A DNA stretch of 43,058 nt, taken from assembly GCA_022826665.1 (NCBI GenBank), contig JAJDUK010000080.1, positions 1 through 43,058 on the forward strand, given 5' to 3'. Below, piece after piece: positions 2,526 to 34,184 of this stretch (within the stretch, counting starts at the first letter, position 1; every line of letters starts with the position of its first letter). This DNA comes from Alphaproteobacteria bacterium. Its GTDB lineage: Bacteria; Pseudomonadota; Alphaproteobacteria; UBA828. The position numbers were made by a program, and so were the translations under genes. The notes under the pieces were generated by a model. The model was not told the DNA's origin. It saw nothing but the letters and a program-made list of their open reading frames with translations, and did not search any database.

Positions 2526-3539
2526 TCAGCCGCCGGCTTGCGCCCTCTTCTCGTCGAGGGCGCGGAGGATGACCTCGGGCGTCACCGGAATCTGGGTGAT
2601 GCGCACGTCGAGCGCGTTGTTGATGGCGTTCACAATGGCCGGGATCGGGCCATTTGTCACCATCTCGCCCACTCCCTTGCCGCCGTAGGGGCCGCTTTCC
2701 GCCGGGTACTCCAGCACCTCGCAGGTGACCTCGGGCATCTCCGACGCGCCGGGCTGGAGATAGTTTTGGAAATCCACCGGCGCAGGATCGATAGCCGGAT
2801 AGCCGGGCGCGGTGGTCTCGTAGAGCGCGTGGCCGATGCCCATCCAGGAACCGCCCACGATCTGGCCCTTCACGAGGTCGGGGTTCACCTGCTGGCCCAC
2901 CTCGTAGACGCTCTTCATGTCGAGCACCTCGACCATGCCCGTCTCGGTATCGACCTCGACCTCGACGATGGTGCAGGCATGGGCCTGGGTCGAATCCGGG
3001 TCGCACTCTCCGGTCTCCGGGTCCATCGGGCTCGGCGGCTTGAGGTAGGCGCCGCGCCCGGCGATGGTCTTGCCGTAGCCGAAGTGGGCGGCGCCCGCGA
3101 CCTCGCCGACCGAGACCGACCTCTCGGCCACGCCCTTAATGTGGATGTTGCCGTCGCCGTCGGTCTCCAGGTCCTCCGGGCTCGCCTCCAGCAGCTCGCC
3201 CGCGACCTCCAGCATCGCCTTGCGCGCCTCCTGCGCCGCCATCACCACCGCGTTGCCCGCGCGATGCGTGGTGCGGCTCGCGAAGGTGCCAGTGCAGTGG
3301 GGGCCGGTGTCGGTATCGGCGGTCTCCACCACGATGCTCTCGTAGGGGACGCCCAGGGTCTCCGCCGCGATCTGCGCCAGCACGGTCCTGAGGCCCTGGC
3401 CGAGATCGACGCTCGCCATGGTGACGACGAAGTCGCCCGCCGGAGTCATGTGGATCAGCGACTGGGTGGGGTCGCCGCCCAGGTGCATTCCGGTCGGATA
3501 ATTCACGGCCGCGAAGCCGGTGCCCCTTACCTTGGCCAT
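2526..3539 (-). CDS. Molybdenum hydroxylase, molybdopterin-binding subunit, C-terminal half (NdhM-like)
   Basis: These 337 residues correspond to the second half of the xanthine dehydrogenase/aldehyde oxidase large subunit. They include the molybdopterin-binding regions (ASVDLGQGL near 43, TGTFASRTT near 83) and the catalytic Glu of the GKGVGE motif at residue 292. The ATG shares one base with the stop of the N-terminal half (TGATG), so translation is probably coupled. In most relatives both halves form one chain of about 770 residues. A separate medium subunit is known in nicotinate dehydrogenase of Eubacterium barkeri (NdhM). The sequence shows a hydroxylase that adds a water-derived oxygen to a heterocycle or aldehyde; the substrate cannot be read from it. 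Confidence 0.85.
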   Translation of the reverse strand: MAKVRGTGFAAVNYPTGMHLGGDPTQSLIHMTPAGDFVVTMASVDLGQGLRTVLAQIAAETLGVPYESIVVETADTDTGPHCTGTFASRTTHRAGNAVVMAAQEARKAMLEVAGELLEASPEDLETDGDGNIHIKGVAERSVSVGEVAGAAHFGYGKTIAGRGAYLKPPSPMDPETGECDPDSTQAHACTIVEVEVDTETGMVEVLDMKSVYEVGQQVNPDLVKGQIVGGSWMGIGHALYETTAPGYPAIDPAPVDFQNYLQPGASEMPEVTCEVLEYPAESGPYGGKGVGEMVTNGPIPAIVNAINNALDVRITQIPVTPEVILRALDEKRAQAGG

Positions 3540-4885
3540 CAGCTTGCCTTTCTGTCCCAGGAGGTCATCGCTTGGTAATCCGCCGGGAGATCGTGACCTG
3601 CAAGCCTTGCCGCCGCCTGGATGGTCTCCACCATCGCCGCGTCCTCGTTGACCTTGCGGTGCGCGCGCATGTCGCCGTTGCGGTAGGCGTTGAGCAGCCG
3701 CAGCTGCCACGGATCCATGCCGATAGTCTTGGCGACCTTGTCCATCTGCAACTCGATGGCGAAGGAGGCCGCCATGACACCGAAGCCCCGCATGGCGCTC
3801 GACGGCGGCCGGTTTGTGAACACCACTCGCGCATCGACCCAGACGTTGGGGATGGTGTAGGGCCCCGGCATGTGGCCCGCGTGTTTCATCGAGCCGTAGG
3901 AGCTGAAGCGCAGATAGGCGCCGGAATCCTGATAGGAGGTGATCTTGCGGGCGACGATGCGTCCGTCGTTCATCACCCCGTCCTTGATGAAGAGGCGCCA
4001 AGCGGAGCGGGTGGAGGAGACCTGCATCTCCTCCTCCCGCGTGTACTTGAACTTGACCGGCCGCCCGGTCCTCATCGCGGCCAGCACCGAGATCGGCTCG
4101 ACCGCCACATCCACCTTGCCGCCAAAGCCGCCGCCCACGGTACCGCCGAGGAAGCGCAGCTTGCCCGGCGCCAGACCGAGGATGGCCGCGGTGTTGTCGC
4201 GGGCGAAGTGCACGGCCTGCGTGTTGGTGTGCACCGTGATGCGCCCGTCGCCGCCGGGCTTGGCGATGCAGCCGTTGGTCTCCATCGGCGCCTGCTCGAT
4301 GGGGCTGGTTTGGTACTTGTCCTCGACGATGTGGTCGGCCTCGGCGAAGCCCTGCTCGACATCGCCGAAGCGAATCTGCGCGGCCGCGTGGTCGTCCGGA
4401 TAGATGTAGTGGTTGTTCGGCCAATGGGCGGTCAGCGCCGGCGCCTCACCGGACATCGCCTCCTCCACGTCGAACACGCCGGGGAGCGGGTCGTACTCGA
4501 CCTCCACCTTGGCGGCGCCGGCGCGGGCGGCCTCGGCACTCTCGCCGATGACGGCGACGATGGGCTCGCCCCGCCAGCGCACCTTGTCGAAGGCGAGGAT
4601 CGGCTCGTCCTCGGGCCCGACGCCGACGGCGGCAAGCCCGTTCCACACCTTCTTGCCGGGCAGGTCCTCGTGGGTGAGGACGCAGACCACGCCGGGGCTC
4701 GCCTCGGCCGCGCTGGTGTCCACGCGCACGATGTTGGCGTGGGGCTCCGCGCTCCGGTGCATCTTGAGATGCAGCATGCGCGGGTAGTGGACGTCCTCGT
4801 AGTAGGTGGTCTGGCCGCGCGCGTGGCTTTCGAGGTCGCGCTGCCCGACGTTCCGGCCGACGACGCCGAGTTCCTTCATCGACAT
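3539..4885 (-). CDS. Molybdenum hydroxylase, molybdopterin-binding subunit, N-terminal half (NdhL-like)
   Basis: These 448 residues form the first half of the large subunit: the aldehyde oxidase/xanthine dehydrogenase a/b hammerhead domain (about 20-145), then the molybdopterin-binding domain with GGGFGGK at 251-257 and AMRGFG further on. It ends cleanly at SWDRKAS with a TGA, and the next gene starts in the overlapping TGATG. Start: the ATG at 4885 overlaps the stop of the Fe-S subunit (TAATG). A second ATG two codons later is possible. Because it lacks the catalytic Glu, it must pair with the downstream subunit. The frame change coincides with a proper stop and start, which argues for a real split rather than a reading error. 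Confidence 0.85.
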   Translation of the reverse strand: MSMKELGVVGRNVGQRDLESHARGQTTYYEDVHYPRMLHLKMHRSAEPHANIVRVDTSAAEASPGVVCVLTHEDLPGKKVWNGLAAVGVGPEDEPILAFDKVRWRGEPIVAVIGESAEAARAGAAKVEVEYDPLPGVFDVEEAMSGEAPALTAHWPNNHYIYPDDHAAAQIRFGDVEQGFAEADHIVEDKYQTSPIEQAPMETNGCIAKPGGDGRITVHTNTQAVHFARDNTAAILGLAPGKLRFLGGTVGGGFGGKVDVAVEPISVLAAMRTGRPVKFKYTREEEMQVSSTRSAWRLFIKDGVMNDGRIVARKITSYQDSGAYLRFSSYGSMKHAGHMPGPYTIPNVWVDARVVFTNRPPSSAMRGFGVMAASFAIELQMDKVAKTIGMDPWQLRLLNAYRNGDMRAHRKVNEDAAMVETIQAAARLAGHDLPADYQAMTSWDRKAS

Positions 4886-5376
4886 TAGCTCGCCTCCTCC
4901 CCGGTATCCGAGAGCGCTTGCGCGGCCTGTTGCACCGCGCGGACGATGGGCGCGAACCCGGTGCAGCGACAAAGATTGCCAGAGAGCCCCTCCACGATCT
5001 CGTCGCGGCTGGGCGCCGGGTTGCGGTCCAACAGCGCCTTCGCCGCCATCACCATGCCGGCGGTGCAGTAGCCGCACTGCGCCGCATAGTTCTCGACGAA
5101 CGCCTGCTGCAGCGGCACGATCGCGTTGGTCGCGTTGAGGCCTTCGAGCGTGGTCACCTCGGCGCCCTCGGCCCGCTCGGCGAGCGTCAGGCAGGAGAGG
5201 CGGAGCTCCCCATCCACCAGCACCGAGCAGCTGCCGCAGCCGCCCTGGCCGCAGCCGCTCTTGACTGCGGTAAGTTCGAGAGTGTCACGCAGCACGTCCT
5301 GCAGCGTTGCCAGCGGCTGGATTATTACCGCTTCGTCACGGCCGTTGACCGTGAGGCGTATCAGCTTGTCTTCCAT
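4885..5376 (-). CDS. Molybdenum hydroxylase, [2Fe-2S] subunit
   Basis: This is the electron-transfer subunit (163 residues) of the hydroxylase. The N-terminal ferredoxin-type cluster uses Cys42, 47, 50 and 62 (GCGQGGCGSC). The C-terminal helical cluster uses Cys101, 104, 136 and 138 (CGYCTAGM and NLCRCTGF). All eight ligands are present and the length is normal for the family. Electrons pass from the molybdenum centre through these clusters to the FAD subunit encoded just upstream. The gene lies 22 nt after the FAD subunit and overlaps the large subunit by one base. It is probably cytoplasmic: no signal sequence is seen on any subunit. Confidence 0.93.
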   Translation of the reverse strand: MEDKLIRLTVNGRDEAVIIQPLATLQDVLRDTLELTAVKSGCGQGGCGSCSVLVDGELRLSCLTLAERAEGAEVTTLEGLNATNAIVPLQQAFVENYAAQCGYCTAGMVMAAKALLDRNPAPSRDEIVEGLSGNLCRCTGFAPIVRAVQQAAQALSDTGEEAS

Positions 5377-5398
5377 CGTTGCCTCCCGCTCAACGTCG

Positions 5399-6214
5399 TC
5401 AGGCGAGCACCGCCAGCACTCGGCCGACGAAGACGCCGGTCATGCGCCGGCGATACCAGTCGGTCGCGACCGCGTCGGTCTGGGGCGCGACCGCGGCTTC
5501 GGCTGCCTGGGCCGCCGCCGTTATCGCCGCGTCGTCCAGGCTCGAGCCGATCACCGCCTGCTCTGCCGCCGGGCAGCGGAGAGGGTGCGCGTGCGCGCCG
5601 CTGAGCGCGATCCTGGCGTCCGACACGGTGCCGCCGTCCTTCTGCACGCAGGCCGCAACGGTAACCACCGAGGGCGTCGAGTAGCGCCGCCGCGCGCACT
5701 TCATGTAGGCGGCGGCTCCCGCCAGCGCGTCCAGCTCGATCCGGGTCAGCAGGCCGGTCCGGGGCGGGGCGCCGTCCGTCCAGCCGGCGTAGAAGTCCTC
5801 GATGGATTGTGTGGTCTCGCCGTCGGCGGTCGCGAAGACCAGCCGCGCGCCGAGGGCGAGCAGCGCAGGTGCGAGATCGCCGAAGGGCGCGCGGGCAAAC
5901 AGGTTGCCGCCGACCGTCGCCATGTTCTGCACCGCCGGCCCGCCGATCTCGCGGGTGGCGGCCTGGAGCGCCGGAATCGGCACGGCCTCGCGCAGCACGC
6001 TCAGCGGAACCGCCGCTCCGATCGACCAGCCGTCATCGCGCGACACCACCTTGTCGAGGCCGAGGCGGTCCACCCCGATCAGGTAGCCGCCATCCGACGG
6101 GTACGTCTCGCGCATCAGGCTGGTGCCGCCTGCGAGCACCGCTGCCGCAGCACCGTGGCGCGCGATCAGATCGGCCGCTTCGTCGATCGAGCCGGGCCGA
6201 AGCAACTCTGGCAT
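5399..6214 (-). CDS. Molybdenum hydroxylase, FAD-binding subunit
   Basis: This 271-residue member of the CO dehydrogenase flavoprotein/medium-subunit family is the first gene of the FAD, Fe-S, large, medium unit. The FAD pyrophosphate is held by AGGTSL (28-33) and TVGGNL (100-105), both intact. It passes electrons from the iron-sulfur subunit to the final acceptor. The order FAD, Fe-S, L, M is that of ndhFSLM. The gene faces the aminotransferase across a 193-bp divergent spacer that holds a hairpin and a copy of the dispersed repeat. Confidence 0.92.
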   Translation of the reverse strand: MPELLRPGSIDEAADLIARHGAAAAVLAGGTSLMRETYPSDGGYLIGVDRLGLDKVVSRDDGWSIGAAVPLSVLREAVPIPALQAATREIGGPAVQNMATVGGNLFARAPFGDLAPALLALGARLVFATADGETTQSIEDFYAGWTDGAPPRTGLLTRIELDALAGAAAYMKCARRRYSTPSVVTVAACVQKDGGTVSDARIALSGAHAHPLRCPAAEQAVIGSSLDDAAITAAAQAAEAAVAPQTDAVATDWYRRRMTGVFVGRVLAVLA

Positions 6215-6295: not shown

Positions 6296-6407
6296 GTCGC
6301 GCGGAACGCGCGCGGAGCACGCGATGCGCGCGGGCGTGCGCTCTGACCTTGCCGCGCCGCTGGCAGGGCGAGTATCGTCCGCCGCGCAAGCGATGACGAG
6401 GCGCGAC

Positions 6408-7787
6408 ATGGCAACGAAGCTCGACGTGAGCGGCCGAAATCTCGACCTGGAAAGCGCGGTTGACGAGGTAAAGGCGCGCTATGTGAGCGCCAATCCCGCA
6501 AGCCGGGCGCAATACGAGCGGGCGAAACAGAGCCTGCCCGGCGGCAACACCCGCACCGGCATGTTCTACACGCCCTTCCCGCTCGCGATCGAGAAGGCGG
6601 CCGGCGCGACGCTGATCGACGTCGACGGCCACACCTACACCGATTTCGTCGGCGACTTCTCCGCCGGCCTTTACGGCCATTCGCATCCCGTGATTCGCGA
6701 GGCCCTGATGGCGGCCCTCGACGACGGGATGGCCTACGGCTCGTCGAGCCCCTACGAGGAGCGGCTGGCGACGCTCGTCTGCGCCCGTTTCTCTTCCATC
6801 GAACAGGTGCGGTTTACCAACTCGGGCACCGAGGCCAACACCATGGCGCTGGTCACCGCCCGCGCGGTCAGCGGCAAGGACCTGGTCATGGTGTTCGAAG
6901 GCGCCTATCACGGCGGCACCATCTACTTCGGCCGCAAAAGCGCGCCGATCAACATGCCCTTCCCCTTCCTCATCGCGCCCTACAACGACCCGGAGGAGGC
7001 GACGCGCCTAATCGCTGAGAATGCGGACCGTCTCGCCTGTGTGCTGGCTGAGCCAATGCAGGGGGCGTCCGGTGCGATTCCGGGCGATGTGGACTTTCTG
7101 CGGGCGTTGCGCGAGGCCTGCACCGCCCACGGCGTGCTGCTGATCTTCGACGAGGTGATGACGTCGCGGGTTGCCCCCAACGGGCGCCAGGGGCAGCTCG
7201 GGATCACCCCCGACTTGACGACGCTCGGCAAATACATCGGTGGCGGCATCTCCTGCGGCGCCTTCGGCGGCCCGGCCGAGATCATGTCGCGCTACGATCC
7301 GTCGAAGCCCGGTGCCTTCGTCCACCACGGCACCTTCAACAACAACGTGCTGATGCTCAGGGCTGGCGCCGCCGGGCTCGAGAAGGTCTTCACGCCGGAG
7401 GTGCAGGTCGCGCTCAGCGAGTCAGGCATTGCCTTGCGCGACGCCCTCAATGGCCTCGCCGCCAAGCACGGGGCACCCTTCCAGGTCACCGGGCTCGGCT
7501 CGATCATGACGATACACTTCCAGAGCGAGCCTCTGCGCTCCATCCGCGACATCCAGCCCAGGGACGAGCGCCTGCGCCAGCTCCTGCATCTCTATCTGAT
7601 CGACAAGGGGTTCTTCACCACCCGGCGCGGGTATATGGCGCTGTCACTGCTCATCACCGAGGCCGATTGCGCGGGCCTGACCCAGGCGATCGACGACTTC
7701 CTGGCCCACCACGGCCATCTGCTCGATACTGCCCCTGAGGAAGCGCCAGTCGACGTTTGGCCGGCGGCCGCCGGCGCCACCACCTAG
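6408..7787 (+). CDS. Class III aminotransferase, glutamate-1-semialdehyde aminomutase-like
   Basis: A PLP enzyme of 459 residues in fold type I, subgroup III. Visible are SGTEANTMA (139-147) in the phosphate-binding region, AYHGG (166-170), the cofactor Asp248 in IFDEVMTSR, and the Schiff-base Lys275 in TLGKYIGGG. The start at 6408 is preceded by GAGG seven bases upstream; an ATG at 6393 is the alternative. It resembles GSA aminomutase in outline, but the context (a SnoaL-like partner, opposite a molybdenum hydroxylase) suggests catabolism of an amino compound rather than haem synthesis. The substrate is unknown. The next gene follows after 13 nt. Confidence 0.88.
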   Translation: MATKLDVSGRNLDLESAVDEVKARYVSANPASRAQYERAKQSLPGGNTRTGMFYTPFPLAIEKAAGATLIDVDGHTYTDFVGDFSAGLYGHSHPVIREALMAALDDGMAYGSSSPYEERLATLVCARFSSIEQVRFTNSGTEANTMALVTARAVSGKDLVMVFEGAYHGGTIYFGRKSAPINMPFPFLIAPYNDPEEATRLIAENADRLACVLAEPMQGASGAIPGDVDFLRALREACTAHGVLLIFDEVMTSRVAPNGRQGQLGITPDLTTLGKYIGGGISCGAFGGPAEIMSRYDPSKPGAFVHHGTFNNNVLMLRAGAAGLEKVFTPEVQVALSESGIALRDALNGLAAKHGAPFQVTGLGSIMTIHFQSEPLRSIRDIQPRDERLRQLLHLYLIDKGFFTTRRGYMALSLLITEADCAGLTQAIDDFLAHHGHLLDTAPEEAPVDVWPAAAGATT

Positions 7788-7800
7788 TGAGGGAGAACGA

Positions 7801-8199
7801 ATGAACGATAGTGAACGCCGCAATCTCGCGGTGATTACCGAGGTCTGCGACGCCTATAACCGGCACGACGTGGAGGGCATTGTCCGGCACTTCGCCGAGG
7901 ACTCGTCCTGGCTGCTCTCGCGCGGCGTGCCGCCCGAGGGAGGGCGCGCAAGAGGGATAGACGAGATCCGCGCCATGGCGCACAAGCGCTTTCGTACCAT
8001 CCCAGACATGTACTGGCACATTCGCAGCCACTGGGTCGGCGGCAACCGGGGCTGCTCCGAGTGGACCGTCACTGGCACCGAATCCAACGGCAACAAGATC
8101 AACTGGCTCGGCTGCGACATCTGGGAGCTGAACGACGACGGCAAGATCGTCACCAAGGACACCTACTGGAAGTTTGCGGGCGAGGAGCCGCCGGAATAG
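7801..8199 (+). CDS. SnoaL/NTF2-like fold protein
   Basis: A small 132-residue cytoplasmic protein of the nuclear transport factor 2-like superfamily. It has the typical N-terminal helix (VCDAYNRHDVEGIVRHFAED), the conserved middle segment GIDEIRAMAHKRF, and C-terminal beta strands rich in Trp. Such proteins are hydrolases, isomerases or binding proteins, and the sequence does not decide which. The start has an excellent site (GAGGGAG, six bases before ATG). It is co-directional with the aminotransferase and 13 nt behind it, so the two probably work on the same substrate. Confidence 0.8.
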   Translation: MNDSERRNLAVITEVCDAYNRHDVEGIVRHFAEDSSWLLSRGVPPEGGRARGIDEIRAMAHKRFRTIPDMYWHIRSHWVGGNRGCSEWTVTGTESNGNKINWLGCDIWELNDDGKIVTKDTYWKFAGEEPPE

Positions 8200-8274: not shown

Positions 8275-8367
8275 GGAGGGATGGCCGAGTGGTCGAAGGC
8301 GGCGGTTTGCTAAACCGTTGTACGGTGACAAGCCGTACCGTGGGTTCGAATCCCACTCCCTCCGCCA
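8275..8367 (+). tRNA. tRNA-Ser(GCT)
   Basis: A complete cloverleaf is visible. The acceptor stem GGAGGGA (8275-8281) pairs with TCCCTCC (8357-8363), followed by a G discriminator and an encoded CCA. The anticodon GCT lies in GGTTTGCTAAACC. The long variable arm (TACGG loop CCGTA) is the class II arm expected for serine, and the T loop reads GGTTCGAATCC. Confidence 0.97.
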
Positions 8368-8539: not shown

Positions 8540-9991
8540 ATGACGGTACTCGTGGAAACCCGAGCCGATCTCACGCTGGAGGCCGCCCGGCGGGTGGCCT
8601 GGGAGGGCGAAGGGGTCGAGCTTGGCGCCACCGCGCTCGCCGCCATGGCAAGTGGGCGGGAGCGCCTGGAACGGATTATCGAGCACGACCCCGAGGTCAC
8701 GATCTATGGCGTGACGACGGGTCCGGGCCAGCTTGCCCGCAAGTCGCTTACGCCAGAACAACGCGAACGGTGGGCCGGCATGTCGCCGGCGCGGATCGCG
8801 GCCTCATGGGGAGATCCGCTGCCCGAGCGGGCCGTCCGCGCCATCGTGCTCGCGCGGCTGACCAACTTCGTGGAAGGCCATTCGGCGGTCTCGCCGGAGA
8901 TCGCCCAGAGCGTCGCCGCCATGCTGGACGAGGACACGCTGCCTAGAGTTCCAACGCAAGGCCAGGGCGGTGCCGGCGAGATCCTGTCGTTGAGCCATCT
9001 GTTCATGGGCCTCGCTGAAGAGGCGGAGCCCGCAATCAAGGACGTGATGTGCCTGGTCAACGGATCGCCTGCGGCCACGGGCCTCGTGACAGATGCTGCG
9101 CTGGTCGCCGAGGGTCGGCTCGAGATCGCAGCACGGGTCTTCGCGCTCTCCTTCGAGGCCTTCAACGCGCCCCTCGACCATCTCGACCCGGCACTCGGCG
9201 ACTATTGGAACAACCCGCACGATCGGTGGGCGCTCGGGCACCTGCGCGAGCTGGTGGCGGGCGGTCATGGCGGGGACCGGCGCCCCTATCAGGCGCCCGT
9301 CAGCTATCGCATCCTTCCGCGAATGCTGGGGCAGGCCCGGCGCGCGGTATCACTGGCTGCGGAGGTCGCGGCGGAATCGCTCCAGGCGGTGACCGACAAC
9401 CCGGTGTGGGCCGAAAGCGCCGACAACGATCAGCCGTTCGGCCGCTTCGTCACGAACGGCGGCTACCACAACCCCCATGCAGTGCTCGCCATGGATGCGC
9501 TCACTGCCGCCTGCGCCAACCTCTGCGTTCTGGCCGAGCGCCACGGTGCGAAGCTTCTGGACGGCACCGTCTCGTTGCTTCCCGACCAGCTGGCGGTTTC
9601 GGACGCCGACGGCGATACCCCGCGCCCTTACATGGGATGTCTGCCGATGGCCCAGACCGGCTACGAGGAGGAAGCCCGCCTATACGCCCAGGCCACGGTG
9701 TTGCCCGGCAGCGAGTCAGGCGGATTCGGCCAGAACGACGTGGCGAGCCCGGTGTTCCTGGCATGGTCCAAGCAGGACCGCGCCGGCCGCTGCCTCGACA
9801 TGGCGCTCGCCAGCCTCGTGCCGATCGCGCTCCGCGCCCTGGACATCACTGATCGGCCCGTTCCTGCGCCGCTGGCTGGGCTCGAGGCCGTGGCCCGAGA
9901 GATCGTGCCAGACCCTGTGCAGCGCCCGGCATTCGGCCCCGTGGTGGCCGCGCTCGCCGACGCCTTGCGCCGCGATATCTATCCGTCTTGA
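8540..9991 (+). CDS. Aromatic amino acid lyase (HAL/PAL) homologue lacking the MIO Ser
   Basis: These 483 residues follow the ammonia-lyase fold from end to end: YGVTTGPG (56-63) in place of YGINTGFG with the catalytic-type Tyr56, CLVNGSPAATG (171-181), and VTDNPVW (284-290). Family members build the MIO electrophile from an internal Ala-Ser-Gly in GASGDLAPLSH. Here the equivalent stretch is GGAGEILSLSH (143-153), one residue shorter and without the Ser, so MIO cannot form in the usual way. The rest of the fold is intact and the frame is clean, so a changed chemistry (non-MIO elimination, isomerisation or binding) is more likely than decay. It stands alone after tRNA-Ser and converges on the LysR gene. 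A weak AAAGG lies nine bases before the ATG. Confidence 0.82.
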   Translation: MTVLVETRADLTLEAARRVAWEGEGVELGATALAAMASGRERLERIIEHDPEVTIYGVTTGPGQLARKSLTPEQRERWAGMSPARIAASWGDPLPERAVRAIVLARLTNFVEGHSAVSPEIAQSVAAMLDEDTLPRVPTQGQGGAGEILSLSHLFMGLAEEAEPAIKDVMCLVNGSPAATGLVTDAALVAEGRLEIAARVFALSFEAFNAPLDHLDPALGDYWNNPHDRWALGHLRELVAGGHGGDRRPYQAPVSYRILPRMLGQARRAVSLAAEVAAESLQAVTDNPVWAESADNDQPFGRFVTNGGYHNPHAVLAMDALTAACANLCVLAERHGAKLLDGTVSLLPDQLAVSDADGDTPRPYMGCLPMAQTGYEEEARLYAQATVLPGSESGGFGQNDVASPVFLAWSKQDRAGRCLDMALASLVPIALRALDITDRPVPAPLAGLEAVAREIVPDPVQRPAFGPVVAALADALRRDIYPS

Positions 9992-10067: not shown

Positions 10068-11090
10068 CTACATCGTCGTCAAACCGTCTTTTCCCGGTGC
10101 ATCGAATCGACAGAATGTGATTTCTGTCTCTCGGCTTATCCACCGCTCCCTGACGCTCCTTAATTCTTTGCTTGCCACTTTCAGTTCTCTTGCCAGGCCG
10201 GCGAGCACCGTCAGAAAACGTTTCGCACTGGGGTTTCTTTGTCCCGTCGTTGTCAGATAAGCGTACAGGCCGCTTTTCGTCTGCAACCATTCATCACGAA
10301 CTGGAATGAGACGGCCAGTCTCGAAATCGTTATTCAAATAGCCATTCCAACCCAGGGCGAGTCCCTGTCCCCTCGCCGCAGCGTCCGTCAAGTGAAAGTA
10401 AATTTCGTGTTTTTCGATCGGGGCCTCCGGGGGCCGGCAATTCTGCGACTTGAACCATGTCTCCCATGTTGTCCAACTCGCTCCCGCCGCGGTCCAGTCC
10501 AAACGGGGCACGCCAAGCCATTGGGAGGGATGTTTGGCCAGCTCCCGCCTGAAGCGCTTGAAATAGGAAGGCGAGGCTACCGGAACGACTTCTTCATCAA
10601 GTAGCCTCTCCGAATGCTGATTGCGGCAAACAGTCGAATACTCGAAAAACACGTCGACACCCACTGGCAACAGCGAGGGAAGCATGTCGTATTCGCAGTT
10701 CAGTATCCGGAGGTCGATGCTTTCATCCAGATGCCGCTTCAGCCTCGCGTAGAGTGGAAGCAAGATCATCACCGAAACGGCCTGCGTGCAGCCTATCGTC
10801 ACGATTGTGTTTTCGGCGTGAAGTTTGTCACTTGCGGCACGCAGGCTTTGAATTGATGGCTGTACAGAGGAAAAATAGTCTTCACCGGTTCTTGTCAGTA
10901 CGAGACCTCGGCCCTTTCGTTCGAATAAGCGAACGTTTAGCGCGTTCTCCAGCTTACCGATGTGACGGCTGATTGCGGGGGACGACACCTCCAGCTCCTC
11001 GGCAGCATGAACTACGCTACCGAGGCGAGCGGTTGCCTCGAACGCGAGCAGTGCGCTGGTGGAGGGAATTCCCGATTTGGCGTCTCTCAA
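10068..11090 (-). CDS. LysR-family transcriptional regulator (GcvA-like)
   Basis: This regulator has 340 residues. The winged-helix domain lies at about 8-67 (LLAFEATARLGSVVHAAEEL, then SSPAISRHIGKLE) and is followed by the periplasmic-binding-protein-like effector domain. The C-terminus extends about 35 residues past the usual end. The frame stays open to an ATG at 11261, but that ATG has no ribosome-binding site. The TTG at 11090 has AGCGAGG four bases upstream and puts the helix-turn-helix at the normal distance from the N-terminus, so it is preferred. Base composition is visibly lower in GC than the flanks. It is downstream of the LuxR-type gene on the same strand and convergent with the lyase, either of which it may control. 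Confidence 0.88.
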   Translation of the reverse strand: MRDAKSGIPSTSALLAFEATARLGSVVHAAEELEVSSPAISRHIGKLENALNVRLFERKGRGLVLTRTGEDYFSSVQPSIQSLRAASDKLHAENTIVTIGCTQAVSVMILLPLYARLKRHLDESIDLRILNCEYDMLPSLLPVGVDVFFEYSTVCRNQHSERLLDEEVVPVASPSYFKRFRRELAKHPSQWLGVPRLDWTAAGASWTTWETWFKSQNCRPPEAPIEKHEIYFHLTDAAARGQGLALGWNGYLNNDFETGRLIPVRDEWLQTKSGLYAYLTTTGQRNPSAKRFLTVLAGLARELKVASKELRSVRERWISRETEITFCRFDAPGKDGLTTM

Positions 11091-11144
11091 GGTGCCTCGC
11101 TGGTACCGTCCGATGTCGAGTCCTCTGCAGGCATGTCGAACGCA

Positions 11145-11156
11145 CCCCCCCCCCCC
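11145..11156. repeat. Homopolymer tract, 12 C (12 G on the coding strand)
   Basis: Twelve consecutive C residues lie 55-66 bp upstream of the preferred LysR start. On the minus strand this is a G12 run inside the open frame that links ATG 11261 to the LysR coding sequence. The tract is followed on the plus strand by CCCAATTCGTTGGG, a small stem with a TTCG loop (overlapping the last Cs). Tracts of this length are prone to slippage, so the count may differ between cells or reads. Confidence 0.85.
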
Positions 11157-11193
11157 AATTCGTTGGGCAAACCCTATTCGTCCGGGCGCTCCC

Positions 11194-11220
11194 TGCCGCC
11201 TCCCAATTAGGAGGGGACTG
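11194..11220. promoter_or_regulatory. Palindromic candidate operator A, upstream of the LysR gene
   Basis: The site reads TGCCGCCTCCCAATTAGGAG then GGGACTG. Its core CCTCC...GGAGG is an inverted repeat. It matches site B (12704-12730) at 22 of 27 positions. It lies 104-130 bp upstream of the LysR start and just downstream of the LuxR stop. The shared site before two neighbouring regulator genes suggests a common binding protein; mobile-element remnants are the alternative. Confidence 0.45.
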
Positions 11221-11279
11221 CAAGAATTGTCAGTAGCGTGGACGAGAGCGGAACGTGCCATTGTCAGCAGGCTAGGATG

Positions 11280-29035: not shown

Positions 29036-29629
29036 TCAGCCCTGCCGGTACTCCGCCATGGCGTCGAGCAGCCAGGTGGCCAGATAGACCGAGAACGAAT
29101 TGCGCACCGTGATCTCGTAGGACGGCGTGTCGTCAGTCTGGTGCAGAATCACGTTTGCCTTCGCCAGCGCGGTTTGCACGCAGGTGTTGGGCTTGAACGC
29201 TCGCGGGTGAAGGTCGAGGCGGCAGCCCTTCATCAACACCTCCCGCGCGCGCGGGCCCGAGAGCGCGAGCGTGGCGTACATGGCGCTCACGTCAGTCAAC
29301 GCGTGGTGGCGGCCGTCGAGGCGCCCCCGCAGCGTGTCATCGAGCTGAGCACCTTCCTCCGCCGGGCCGGTCACCAGCCACTCGTCGGGACCGAGCCAGA
29401 GCAAGATCTTGCCGTTGACGGTGGTGGCTGCGGTGTTTGGTGTGCGCGGCAACGACCCGCCAAGAATGGCGCCGGCGGCGGTGAGCGCCTCAACATCCTT
29501 CGGATCGATTCGGAGGTTGAAACGCGCACGCGCCGACCTGTCTGTTAGCGTCACGCCATCGGCGCGCGCGCCCGCGAGCGCGTCTGCAAGGCCCGCGAGC
29601 GGGCTGCGGGGTGCCGGCGCCTCAGCCAT
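29036..29629 (-). CDS. soxG: Sarcosine oxidase gamma subunit
   Basis: The small structural subunit (197 residues) of heterotetrameric sarcosine oxidase. It is recognised by [49 protein letters not shown] and [20 protein letters not shown] near the C-terminus, a folate-binding-like GcvT-related fold. The ATG at 29629 overlaps the alpha-subunit stop by 8 nt. It completes the order B, D, A, G. No folate genes (glyA, purU, folD) are attached, unlike many sox operons. Confidence 0.93.
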
Positions 29630-32627
29630 CCCGCTTGGCTCCTTCCGAGTCGTAGAACACCGGCTCGGTGATCTTGCAGGGCAGGAAGCCGGTCTCGGGC
29701 GCCGCATAGATGGTCTCGCCCTTGCGCGCCCGGCCGCCCTTCACCAGCGCGAGCGCGATGGAACGCCCCAATGTCGGGCTCGCGTAGCTCGATGTGACGT
29801 GACCGATCATCGGGATCGGCGGCTGCCCGCGCTTGTCCACCAGCTGCGTGCCTTCGGGTAGCACCTTCTTGGGGTCGTCGGTGAGGATGCCGACGAGCTG
29901 CTTGCGGTCCTCGCGCCGCGAGTCTTCGCGGTTCCAGGCGCGCTTGCCCAAGAAATCGGCTTTCTTCTTGGAGACGATCCAGTCCATGCCGAGGTCGTGC
30001 GGCGTGGTGGTGCCGTCGGTCTCCTGGCCCACGATGATGAAGCCCCGCTCGGCACGCAGCACGTGCATCGCCTCGGTGCCGTAGGGGGTGATGCCGTGCT
30101 CGGCGCCTGCCTCCATCAGGGCATCCCACAGGCGGCGGCCGTGGCTCCAGGGCACGTTGATCTCGAAGCTGAGCTCGCCGGTGAAGCTGATGCGGAAGAC
30201 GCGGGCATTCACGCCGGCGACGACGCCCTCCTTCACGCTCATGAAGGGGAAGGAGTGGGCATCCAGCGCCATCTCCGGCGCCAGCGCAGCCAGCACGTCG
30301 CGGGCGCGTGGGCCGGCCAGCGCCACCGTCGCCCACTGCTCGGTCACCGAGGTGCAGTAGACCTTGAGCTCCGGCCACTCGGTCTGCAGCCATTCCTCGA
30401 GCCATTCCAGCACGTGGGCCGCGTTGCCGGTGGTCGTCGTCATCAGGTAGTGGTTCTCGCCGAGGCGCGCGGTGGTGCCGTCGTCGAAGACCATACCGTC
30501 GTCGCCGCACATCAGCCCGTAGCGCACCCGGCCTACCTTCAGCGTCGAAAAGGCGTTGGTGTAGACCATGTCGAGCAGGGTCGTGGCGTCGGGCCCCTTG
30601 ATGTCGATCTTGCCGAGGGTGGAGGCATCGAGGATACCCGCAGCCTCCCGCACCGCCCGGCATTCGCGCGCCACCGCCGCGTGCTTGTCATCGCGCCGCT
30701 TGGGATACCACCAGGGCCGGTGCCACTGGCCCACGGGCTCGAACACCGTACCTGCGGCCTCGTGCCACACGTGCATCGCCGTGCGCCGCACCGGGTCCAT
30801 CAGCGCGCCGGTATCGCGCCCGGCGAGCGCGCCGAAGGTGACCGGCGTATAGGGCGGGCGATAGGTGGTAAAGCCCACCTCGGGCACCGTCTTGCCCAGC
30901 GCATCGGCAAGGATGGCAAGCCCGTTGACGTTCGCCGTCTTGCCCTGGTCGGTGCCCATGCCGACGGTGGTGTAGCGCTTGACGTGCTCGACCGACCGAA
31001 AACCCTCGCGCGCGGCGAGCCGGATATCCGCCGCGGTCACGTCGTCCTGGTGGTCGACCATGTGCTTGGCCTTGCCGTGGCCGAGCGGCTTCAGCCCCGG
31101 TGCGAGCCAGTAGGGTGTGATGGCGCCGGGCTCAGGTGCTTCGACCGGCGGTGCCGGCGGCGGCGTGCCATCGCCGAAACCCGCCGCCTCGGCCGCGCGC
31201 GCGCCGATGGCGGCCCCCTCCGCGAGACAAGCGGCGAGGCCAAAGCTGCCGTTGGCGGCGCCCGCGACTTCCAGTGCTTGCGTCGCGGTGCCGGGGAGGA
31301 AGATGCCCCGCGCCTCTTCGTAGGTGAGCTTGCCGGCCGACTGGCTGAAGAGATGCACCGCCGGGTTCCAGCCGCCGGAGACCAGCACGCTGTCGCAGAA
31401 GATGCGGTATTGCTCGCCGCTGAGCCCGCCATCCCCGTCGAGCTTCGCAACGGTGACGGAGCGCACCCGCTTCGTCCCGTGAGTGGCGGCGATGGCCGAG
31501 CCGGTGTGGAGCGCGACGCCGGCCTCCTTGAGCGCAGGCGCCAGCGGCGCCGCGGGCTCGGGCCGGCAATCGACCACGGCGCCGACCGTGCCGCCCGCCT
31601 CGACGATGTCGTGCGCTACCTCGTAAGCCGCGTCGTTGTTGGTAAACAGCACCGCGCGCTCGCCCGGCAGCGCCGCGTACTGGTTGAGGTAGCGCTGCGC
31701 CGCCGAGGCCAGCAGAATGCCGGGGCGGTCGTTGTCGGCGAACACCAAGGGCCGCTCATGGGCGCCGGTGGCGAGCACCACCCTGCCCGCCTTGATGTTC
31801 CAGAGGCGCTGACGGCTCGTGCCGGCCGGCGCGCCCGGCCCCAGGTGGTCGGTGCGGCGCTCGAACGCGCTCAGCGAGTTGTGGTCGTAGTAGCCGAAGA
31901 GCGTGGTGCGGGTGAGGACGCGGACCTCCTCCATCGCGGCAAGACGCCCGGCCGCCGCTTGGGCCCAGGCCGCGCCGTCGACGCCATCGACTCTGTGGCG
32001 CAGGCCCACCAGGGCGCCGCCGAGGGTCGCCTCGTCGTCCACCAGCATCACCCGCGCGCCGGCCTCACCGGCGGCGAGCGCCGCGGAGATGCCCGCCGGG
32101 CCGCCGCCCACCACCAGCACGTCGCAGTGGATGTTCATCTTGTCGTAGGAGTCCGGGTCGGGCGCCTCCGGCGCGCGGCCGAGCCCCGCCATCCGCCTGA
32201 TCGCGGGCTCGTAGAGCGACTTCCAGAAGGACGCCGGCCAGAGGAAAGTCTTGTAGTAGAAGCCGGCGGGGAAGAGCGGCGCGAGCCGCCCGGTCCAGGC
32301 GGCGAGGTCGCAGTTGGCGCTCGGCCAGGCGTTGACGCCGGCGGCGGTGAGCCCGTCGTAGAGCTCGACCTGGGTCGCACGCAGGTTGGGCTCCGTCCGT
32401 GCGCCTTCGCCGAGTTGCACCAGTGCGGACGGCTCCTCCGCGCCTGCGGTGAGGATGCCGCGCGGCCGGTGATACTTGAAGCTGCGGCTGGTCAGGTGCG
32501 TGCCGCTCGCGATCAGCGCGGACGCCAGCGTATCGCCGGCATAGCCCTCGTAGCTCCGCCCGTTGAAGGTGAAGCGGAGGCGCTGCGCCCTGTCGATCCG
32601 CCCACCCTCCTTGAGACGAAAGCGCAC
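29622..32627 (-). CDS. soxA: Sarcosine oxidase alpha subunit
   Basis: A 1001-residue large subunit that binds NAD+ and, in its C-terminal half, tetrahydrofolate. In order: a 2Fe-2S-like N-terminal domain fold (RFTFNGRSYEGYAGDTLASA), a Rossmann domain (VVGGGPAGISAALAAGEAGA at about 150), the pyridine-nucleotide region, and a GcvT-like aminomethyltransferase domain over the last 380 residues (GILDASTLGKIDIKGPDA...). Formaldehyde from sarcosine is normally passed to tetrahydrofolate there. The start is GTG 32627, sharing a base with the soxD stop (TAGTG). The enzyme makes glycine, H2O2 and 5,10-methylene-THF. Confidence 0.95.
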   Translation of the reverse strand: MRFRLKEGGRIDRAQRLRFTFNGRSYEGYAGDTLASALIASGTHLTSRSFKYHRPRGILTAGAEEPSALVQLGEGARTEPNLRATQVELYDGLTAAGVNAWPSANCDLAAWTGRLAPLFPAGFYYKTFLWPASFWKSLYEPAIRRMAGLGRAPEAPDPDSYDKMNIHCDVLVVGGGPAGISAALAAGEAGARVMLVDDEATLGGALVGLRHRVDGVDGAAWAQAAAGRLAAMEEVRVLTRTTLFGYYDHNSLSAFERRTDHLGPGAPAGTSRQRLWNIKAGRVVLATGAHERPLVFADNDRPGILLASAAQRYLNQYAALPGERAVLFTNNDAAYEVAHDIVEAGGTVGAVVDCRPEPAAPLAPALKEAGVALHTGSAIAATHGTKRVRSVTVAKLDGDGGLSGEQYRIFCDSVLVSGGWNPAVHLFSQSAGKLTYEEARGIFLPGTATQALEVAGAANGSFGLAACLAEGAAIGARAAEAAGFGDGTPPPAPPVEAPEPGAITPYWLAPGLKPLGHGKAKHMVDHQDDVTAADIRLAAREGFRSVEHVKRYTTVGMGTDQGKTANVNGLAILADALGKTVPEVGFTTYRPPYTPVTFGALAGRDTGALMDPVRRTAMHVWHEAAGTVFEPVGQWHRPWWYPKRRDDKHAAVARECRAVREAAGILDASTLGKIDIKGPDATTLLDMVYTNAFSTLKVGRVRYGLMCGDDGMVFDDGTTARLGENHYLMTTTTGNAAHVLEWLEEWLQTEWPELKVYCTSVTEQWATVALAGPRARDVLAALAPEMALDAHSFPFMSVKEGVVAGVNARVFRISFTGELSFEINVPWSHGRRLWDALMEAGAEHGITPYGTEAMHVLRAERGFIIVGQETDGTTTPHDLGMDWIVSKKKADFLGKRAWNREDSRREDRKQLVGILTDDPKKVLPEGTQLVDKRGQPPIPMIGHVTSSYASPTLGRSIALALVKGGRARKGETIYAAPETGFLPCKITEPVFYDSEGAKRDG

Positions 32628-32923
32628 TATCCGCCCTCCGCCTCGTCGCCCGGCGCATCGGGCCTGGGCGTGCCCATGGGATAGATCGTGAGCACGTCGT
32701 TGCTGACGGTGTCGCGCAGCGCGTTGAACCAGCGCCGGCAGCCTTCCCGGTGCATCCAGCGCTCGGCGTGGACGCCCTTCGGGTTGCTCCGCATGAAGAG
32801 ATAGTCGCCCCAGCCGGCATCGTCGGTCGTCGCCGGGTCGGGGCGTGCGATGTGGGCCTCGCCACCGTAGCGAAACTCGGATTCCGGCCGCGCGCCGCAC
32901 CAGGGGCAATCGATCCAGAGCAT
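32627..32923 (-). CDS. soxD: Sarcosine oxidase delta subunit
   Basis: The 98-residue zinc-binding subunit. CPWCGARPESEF at the N-terminus and HREGCRRWFNALRDT supply the Cys/His ligands, and TIYPMG near the end is usual for SoxD. It starts at ATG 32923, 10 nt after the soxB stop, and overlaps soxA by one base. Confidence 0.95.
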   Translation of the reverse strand: MLWIDCPWCGARPESEFRYGGEAHIARPDPATTDDAGWGDYLFMRSNPKGVHAERWMHREGCRRWFNALRDTVSNDVLTIYPMGTPRPDAPGDEAEGG

Positions 32924-32933
32924 TCCGCGCTTC

Positions 32934-34184
32934 CTAGTGCGCCACGGCCGCCGCCGCGTGCTCGTCGATGAGCGCGCCGGAGGTGAAGCGGTCGAGCGCA
33001 AAGGGCGCGTTGAGCGGGTGCGGCTCGCCGGTCGCGATGGTGTGGGCCAGCACCCAGCCCGAGCCCGGCGTCGCCTTGAAGCCGCCGGTGCCCCAGCCGC
33101 CGTTGATGAAGAGACCTTCCACCGGGGTCTTGCCGATGATGGGCGAGGCATCGGGGCAGACATCCACGATCCCGGCCCAGGAGCGCATCATCCGCACCCG
33201 GCTGAAGATCGGGATCAACTCGACGATGGCCCCCATCTGGTCCTCGATGGTGTGCAGACCGCCGCGCTGGCTATAGGAGTTGGGCGGGTCGAGGCCGGCG
33301 CCGATCACGAGCTCGCCCTTGTCGGACTGGCTGACGTAGACGTGCACGCCGTTCGACATGATGACGCAGTGAAGCACCGGCTTGAGCGGCTCAGAGACCA
33401 GCGCCTGCAGCGGGTGGCTCTCGATCGGCAGCCGGAAGCCCGCCATCGCAGCCAGCACCGAGCTATGCCCCGCGACCACGATGCCGACCTTCTTCGCGGC
33501 GATCGTGCCTTGCGTGGTTTGCACGCCGGTCACCCGGCCGGCTTCCACGTCGATGCCGGTGACCTCGCAATTCTGGATGATGTCGACGCCGCGCGCGTCC
33601 GCCGCCCGCGCGTAGCCCCAGGCGACCGCATCGTGGCGTGCGTTGCCGCCTCGTCGCTGCAGGGTGCCGCCCATGATCGGGTAGCGCGTCTTGGGCGAGG
33701 TGTTGAGGATCGGGCAGAACGCCTTGACCTCCTCCGTGGACAGCAGCTCGGCATCGACCGCGTTGAGCCGGTTGGCGTTGACCCGCCGGGTCGCCTCCTG
33801 CAGATCGTGGACGTTGTGGATCAGGTTCAGCACGCCCCGCTGGCTGAACATCAGGTTGTAGTTCAGTTCCTGTGCGAGGCCTTCCCACAGCTTGAGCGAG
33901 TGCTCATAAAGCGCCGCGCTCTCGTCCCACAGATAGTTGGAGCGGATCACCGTGGTGTTGCGGCCGGTGTTGCCGCCGCCGAGCCAGCCTTTCTCCAGCA
34001 CCGCCACATTGGTGATGCCGTGGAGGGCGGCGAGGTAGTAGGCGGTCGCCAGCCCGTGTCCGCCGGCGCCGATGATGACCACATCGTAGGCTGGCTTCGG
34101 TGCAGGGCTCCGCCACTGCTCCGGCCAGTGCTCGTGGTGGCTCAGCGCGTTGCGCGCCAGGCTGAAGATCGAGAACTTTTTCAT
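32934..34184 (-). CDS. soxB: Sarcosine oxidase beta subunit
   Basis: A 416-residue flavoprotein of the DAO family that oxidises sarcosine and carries the FMN shuttle. The FAD-binding GxGxxG is at 39-44 (GAGGHG). His184 in [12 protein letters not shown] is the residue that corresponds to the covalent FMN ligand of known enzymes. [17 protein letters not shown] near the C-terminus belongs to the second flavin-binding motif. It is the first gene of soxBDAG, divergent from the CoA-binding gene over 142 bp. Confidence 0.96.

Follow-up and report, generated by a model that had tools for sequence, protein, structure and literature searches.

The histidine ammonia-lyase (HAL) reaction needs MIO, whose biogenesis requires the Ser of an Ala-Ser-Gly triad; without this Ser, no MIO is formed. 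The window, by which we mean the whole 43,058-nucleotide stretch of DNA analyzed here, contains a gene for a protein of this family from which the triad is absent, and this raises the question of whether such a protein can still be an enzyme and, if so, which reaction it might catalyze. The gene and its surroundings are as follows.

6324..8199, + strand: upstream gene pair, class III aminotransferase (6324-7787) and SnoaL-like protein (7801-8199)
8275..8367, + strand: tRNA-Ser (GCT), between the lyase gene and the upstream pair
8540..9991, + strand: lyase homologue of PF00221 without the MIO triad, 483 amino acids, ATG start, zero internal stops
8705..8707, + strand: codon of Tyr56, which is invariant in the wider clade and corresponds to the catalytic Tyr53 of P. 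putida HAL
8966..8998, + strand: former MIO loop, residues 143-153 (GGAGEILSLSH)
8972-8974, + strand: codon of Ala145, at the place of the MIO-forming Ser
9290..9310, + strand: QAPVSYR, residues 251-257, with Gln251 and Arg257 kept and Val254 in place of HAL Tyr280
10068..11261, - strand: LysR-type regulator, convergent, downstream of the lyase gene

The former MIO loop and its conservation

The protein is a member of the PF00221 superfamily (208.7 bits, cut-off 27.3) and scored 147.8 bits with the HutH equivalog model TIGR01225 (NCBIfam), which is below the cut-off of 539.15. The motifs IYGVTTGPG (with Tyr56), NGSPAATG (with Asn174), TDNPVW (residues 285-290), and GGAGEILSLSH (residues 143-153) lie where the original prediction had placed them. 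Its former MIO loop is VPTQGQGGAGEILSLSH, and that of the canonical HutH proteins of related genomes is GSVGASGDLAPLAH. Aligned with the canonical sequence GSVGASGDLAPLSH, the window protein reads GQ-GGAGEILSLSH, with Gly-Ala-Gly in place of Ala-Ser-Gly and one residue less; it is likewise shorter by one residue than the reference segment GSVGASGDL (residues 138-146) of P. putida HAL. The predicted loss of Ala-Ser-Gly with deletion of one residue was thereby borne out and can be refined to Gly-Ala-Gly followed by Glu147. The most natural position of the gap is directly before the triad, G-Q-(-)-G-G-A-G-E-I, so that Ala142-Ser143-Gly144 of HAL correspond to Gly144-Ala145-Gly146 of the window protein and Asp145 corresponds to Glu147; MAFFT itself shifted the gap by one or two residues toward the C-terminus. 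Since the gap can be set either in front of the triad or within it, "Ser lost" and "Ser to Ala" are equivalent descriptions of one event. The Ala-Ser-Gly triad by which MIO enzymes (HAL, PAL, TAL, and the aminomutases) are recognized is absent from the window protein.

When one genome per species was scanned, 32 loci with close relatives were obtained, mostly from alphaproteobacterial metagenome-assembled genomes. The sequence GGAGEIL was invariant in the window protein and all 30 full-length close relatives (69-89% identity), none of which has an intact Ala-Ser-Gly, and pairwise dN/dS values were 0.14-0.20. The altered loop is conserved and maintained by purifying selection; neither decay nor an assembly error accounts for it. 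The earlier view that the clean reading frame makes decay less likely was thus confirmed, and decay, sequencing error, or misassembly of an ordinary HutH, in favor of which nothing speaks except the draft, metagenome-like assembly of 106 contigs, was rejected as having a negligible probability, because the loop recurs in relatives from other assemblies, the dN/dS values are low, and the protein is deeply separated from HutH in the tree. In two clade members (G489:C68:253054-254289 and G034:C16:291041-291343) the matched stretch contains an in-frame TGA, which may indicate ongoing decay of the gene in some genomes.

Within the genus of the window, a PF00221 gene is present in all eight genomes, that of the window included. 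The GGAGEIL loop was found in the seven that could be read, and in the eighth (G756, locus L163) the loop was not cleanly readable; a canonical Ala-Ser-Gly loop was read in L160, from another genus of the same family. A second tier of relatives with 44-53% identity includes plasmid-encoded proteins of Rhizobium tropici and R. jaguaris. The proteins of this tier and the approximately 25 paralogues of one alphaproteobacterial genome, G086, have as common signature a small residue followed by Gly-Glu. One distant paralogue, L132, happens to carry Ala-Ser-Gly at the loop position, and in a few others the middle position is Ser, Pro, Asp, or Glu. A tree of 78 PF00221 proteins (quick method, SH-aLRT without bootstrap, loop columns retained, 6s7j not among the sequences) places this Gly-Glu clade on one side of a branch (SH-aLRT 99) and separates it both from canonical HutH and from another MIO-less clade with the loop GSVGY (SH-aLRT 100). 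One member, L010 (JAPPNP010000015.1), lies on a contig binned as Chloroflexota that has an alphaproteobacterial arrangement of HutC, urocanase, and lyase genes; it groups with the alphaproteobacteria in the tree and is probably misbinned.

Tyr56, Asn174, Gln251, Arg257, and Gly146-Glu147 are invariant in the alignment of the wider clade; the HAL counterparts of the first four, all catalytic-site residues, are Tyr53, Asn195, Gln277, and Arg283. Three other active-site residues of HutH are replaced in the window protein, His83 by Ile86, Tyr280 by Val254, and Glu414 by Asn399. An AlphaFold2 model (mean pLDDT 89.6) matched ergothionase (6s7j, Z 37.7), tyrosine aminomutase (Z 37.4), and HAL (Z 36.9) equally well, and Foldseek agreed. 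A search with residues 90-165 of the window protein aligned residues 92-155 of 6s7j over 64 residues ungapped (E 4.7e-7). The loop is thus of the ergothionase type, RIPMRSSIGEGDITTLSH in the window protein aligning ungapped with RVPTQGQGGAGEILSLSH in ergothionase, whereas MIO enzymes need a gap there. Its architecture is that of the one enzyme with this fold and without MIO that was found among the solved structures.

Gene contexts of the clade

The window's own neighbors (aminotransferase, SnoaL-like protein, tRNA-Ser, and LysR-type regulator) carry little functional information and no pointer to betaines. The tRNA-Ser gene sets the lyase gene apart from the aminotransferase/SnoaL pair, which is not counted as a functional partner because L003 alone retains it beside the lyase. 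The neighborhood was for the same reason dropped as a functional guide, the block of xanthine-dehydrogenase-type, aminotransferase, and SnoaL genes being kept only there. The molybdoenzyme genes of xanthine-dehydrogenase/CO-dehydrogenase type (FAD and Mo subunits; window 2526-6214, - strand) are partially conserved beside the lyase, again in L003 only. Farther downstream (29036-34184, - strand), open reading frames judged by eye resemble sarcosine oxidase subunits (soxB, soxA, and soxG-like). For the relatives, neighboring genes were called by GC content by codon position; longest-ORF calling gave many shadow ORFs without families.

At four loci (L010, L017, L018, and L030), a HutC-type repressor gene is followed by a urocanase gene and then by the lyase gene, and in L017 and L018 the TGA stop codon of the urocanase gene overlaps the GTG start codon of the lyase gene. 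The L017 urocanase scored 945 bits with HutU versus 719 bits with the S-methyl-thiourocanate hydratase model and 701 bits with the thiourocanate hydratase model, so that the expected intermediate is urocanate. In the window's genome, hutU, hutC, hutG, and hutI lie together on another contig (L120, G000:C100:30000-48000), all scoring over their cut-offs. This genome has no canonical hutH, the window protein being its only PF00221 member, and a tblastn search for a decayed HutH next to hutU gave none. Similarly, the MIO-less lyase of G366 is the only PF00221 protein of that genome and is encoded beside hutU. G289, from the same genus as the window, contains the lyase, and a urocanase search there gave no hit; G185, G357, and G279 possess a canonical HutH in addition to the MIO-less protein.

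A gene for a glycine-betaine-type binding protein (OpuAC) directly precedes the lyase gene in L013, L014, and L019, in L013 with a ProV-type ATPase nearby as well, and in R. jaguaris the lyase gene is directly followed by genes for an ATPase, two permeases, and OpuAC. OpuAC was found beside the lyase in 0 of 19 whole genomes scanned; the adjacency is thus not general, and L013, L014, L019, and L075 are the basis of the transporter link. Of 17 genomes, 16 lacked EgtD (PF10017); such betaines would therefore be imported, home-made hercynine being unlikely. A gene for a UbiD decarboxylase, a family that includes aryl-acrylate decarboxylases, adjoins the lyase gene in G163, G246, and R. tropici. 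In the 5.6 Mb of G246 there is a single UbiD hit, and we estimate the chance of its lying within 2 kb of the lyase gene at ~0.1%, uncorrected for the number of neighbors inspected. The type III glutamine synthetase TIGR03105, considered as a methylamine marker, scored over the cut-off in 15 of 17 genomes and was dropped, as no base rate for the class was available.

The paralogues of G086 (loci L051, L056, L057, L062, and L128-L135) occur in a genome of 2.7 Mb in 7 contigs that also has seven urocanase-family genes; most of its PF00221 genes are MIO-less, and several form tandem runs of two to six. The genes at the head of one run, which consists of five tandem clade members and is followed by an ABC permease gene, encode an S-methyl thiourocanate hydratase, scoring 890.8 bits (cut-off 880), and a protein resembling S-methyl thiohydantoin desulfurase, scoring 409 bits (just under the cut-off of 450). 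As hydratase and desulfurase represent later steps of thiohistidine-betaine breakdown, the betaine-lyase step is left for the tandem genes. At another locus of this genome (L123/L103, G086:C3:77116-78519), a lyase with intact Ala-Ser-Gly, which may act on thiohistidine or ergothioneine as a MIO-type enzyme, has as neighbors a thiourocanate hydratase (963 bits, cut-off 930) and a DUF917 protein, and the link between this pathway and MIO loss is thus not absolute.

A putative betaine lyase and its alternatives

From sequence and context we infer, at roughly even chances, that the window protein is a MIO-independent lyase releasing trimethylamine from an aromatic amino-acid betaine. For the lineage of the window, conversion of hercynine (histidine betaine) to urocanate and trimethylamine would be the likeliest reaction, with a chance somewhat short of even. 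Arg257 would anchor the carboxylate and Tyr56 would take the beta proton, and the quaternary ammonium group would depart without help from the MIO electrophile, on which the elimination of primary amines depends, yielding a tertiary amine (trimethylamine) and an aryl-acrylate. Urocanate formed from hercynine could then be passed on to urocanase, HutI, and HutG. Trimethylammonium is a better leaving group than ammonia, which, applied to this protein, is a plausible reason why MIO could be dispensable. The ergothionase-type loop, the retention of Tyr56, Asn174, Gln251, and Arg257, and the hut, betaine, and UbiD contexts suggest such an activity; against it stand the higher sequence score to HAL and aminomutase, the G289 genome without a urocanase hit, the missing OpuAC neighbors in the scanned genomes, and the intact triad of L103.

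Retention of the catalytic Tyr and the carboxylate-binding Arg would also suit an active MIO-independent enzyme that acts on an aromatic or imidazole acid with another leaving group (thiolate, sulfonate, hydroxyl, or acyloxy) or catalyzes hydration or isomerization, and the diversity of the gene contexts and the many G086 paralogues, which imply several substrates, are consistent with it. We nevertheless regard this reading as rather unlikely, since clade members of separate lineages lie beside genes for betaine-type ABC transporters and for the thiohistidine-betaine pathway and the nearest MIO-less enzyme with a known structure is a trimethylamine lyase.

The operons of HutC, urocanase, and lyase, together with the two genomes that have a urocanase and no other PF00221 protein, could alternatively mean that the protein is a MIO-independent HAL standing in for HutH. 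This appears improbable, because HAL chemistry requires MIO, all three of the HAL residues His83, Tyr280, and Glu414 are replaced, three genomes contain a canonical HutH alongside the MIO-less protein, and the protein occurs in G289 without a urocanase hit.

The original prediction had left the choice between a new reaction on the same scaffold and a binding protein. The first part points in the right direction, whereas the second is disfavored: a non-catalytic pseudoenzyme binding a histidine-like ligand, as a sensor or subunit, would be in line with the loss of the defining electrophile and of some HAL residues, but it is likewise improbable in view of the four invariant residues, the stoichiometric-looking operons with enzymes (urocanase and UbiD) and betaine-type transporters, and the existence of a MIO-less catalytic relative.

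Extending the betaine-lyase reading to the whole clade, we tentatively propose, with less confidence than for the window protein itself, a large unrecognized class of MIO-independent aromatic-betaine lyases. It would include a hercynine trimethylamine-lyase with which marine and sponge-associated Alphaproteobacteria begin hut-type catabolism in place of HutH, and it would have radiated in the G086 genome into paralogues presumably each acting on a different betaine. If the proteins are betaine lyases, genomes with a hut pathway and no HutH would be explained, trimethylamine would have one more microbial source, marine and soil bacteria would have a route for betaines of the hercynine and ergothioneine type, and many natural MIO-independent scaffolds would be at hand for studying amine elimination without an electrophile in this fold. 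As these proteins match HutH models, they are liable to be labeled histidine ammonia-lyases though unable to form MIO.

Comparison with known systems

In the open literature searched for MIO-less homologues and a hercynine lyase, only ergothionase was found, and an earlier description in subscription papers is possible; in that literature, the MIO-less clade described here, which is widespread and conserved and occurs in hut and betaine contexts, appears uncharacterized. The loss of MIO as such is less novel than was originally implied, ergothionase being a trimethylamine lyase of the same fold that also lacks it.

Several other PF00221 groups are without the triad. A second MIO-less clade with the loop GSVGY[LI], annotated as HutH, occurs in Alphaproteobacteria and other Pseudomonadota (L053, L059, L060, L061, L104-L107, L143, and L153-L156). 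Two further groups without canonical Ala-Ser-Gly have the loops GS[FL]G[AG]SDL (L052 and L058) and GE[GA]DL (L068:459-2339 and L108); the GEGD loop of the latter, of which G246 has several such copies, resembles that of the Treponema ergothionase. The L143 protein (WP_174005109.1), annotated as HutH on an Agrobacterium plasmid, has the loop GSVGYLTH and belongs to an ergothioneine-type cluster, and its gene neighbors encode a DUF917 protein, a urocanase-type hydratase, a Zn hydrolase, and a glycine-betaine ABC transporter. As in the clade of the window protein, absence of the triad is combined here with a betaine transporter and urocanase-type context, but the deletion is a different one and the GSVGY clade is separate and nearer to HutH. 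The MIO triad was thus lost in more than one clade, twice in betaine-type contexts. An ergothionase has been reported from Agrobacterium radiobacter (PMC7653990), and we infer by analogy that the L143 protein may be this enzyme; short L143 fragments used as queries did not retrieve ergothionase.

With HutH (P. putida HAL, PDB 1gkm/1b8f), the window protein shares the fold, the counterparts of Tyr53, Asn195, Gln277, and Arg283, and, in some relatives, the hut gene context, whereas it lacks Ala-Ser-Gly, His83, Tyr280, and Glu414 and belongs to a separate clade. Tyrosine 2,3-aminomutase (S. globisporus, PDB 2ohy), the second-best structural match, likewise has Asn in place of HAL Glu414, but it is MIO dependent, and its model gives the window protein only 100 bits (cut-off 501). 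Ergothionase (Treponema denticola, PDB 6s7j/6s7q) releases trimethylamine from ergothioneine without MIO, according to PMC13405746, which cites Maurer 2019. Its loop GEGDITTLSH has the same length as that of the window protein and conforms to the same pattern, G-x-G-[DE]-I-x-x-L-S-H, and its segment ALQDPLSFR places an aliphatic residue at the position of HAL Tyr280 and keeps the Arg, as in the window protein. The two proteins differ in that they are only ~19% identical in the structural alignment, the profile score of the window protein to 6s7j (1.7e-14) is weaker than that to HAL and the aminomutase (1e-26), and the substrate is probably not that of ergothionase, as the urocanase encoded next to the L017 lyase fits urocanate better than thiourocanate. 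The window protein thus has a well-known fold, yet it is a triad-less variant of the MIO family for which ergothionase is the MIO-less precedent.
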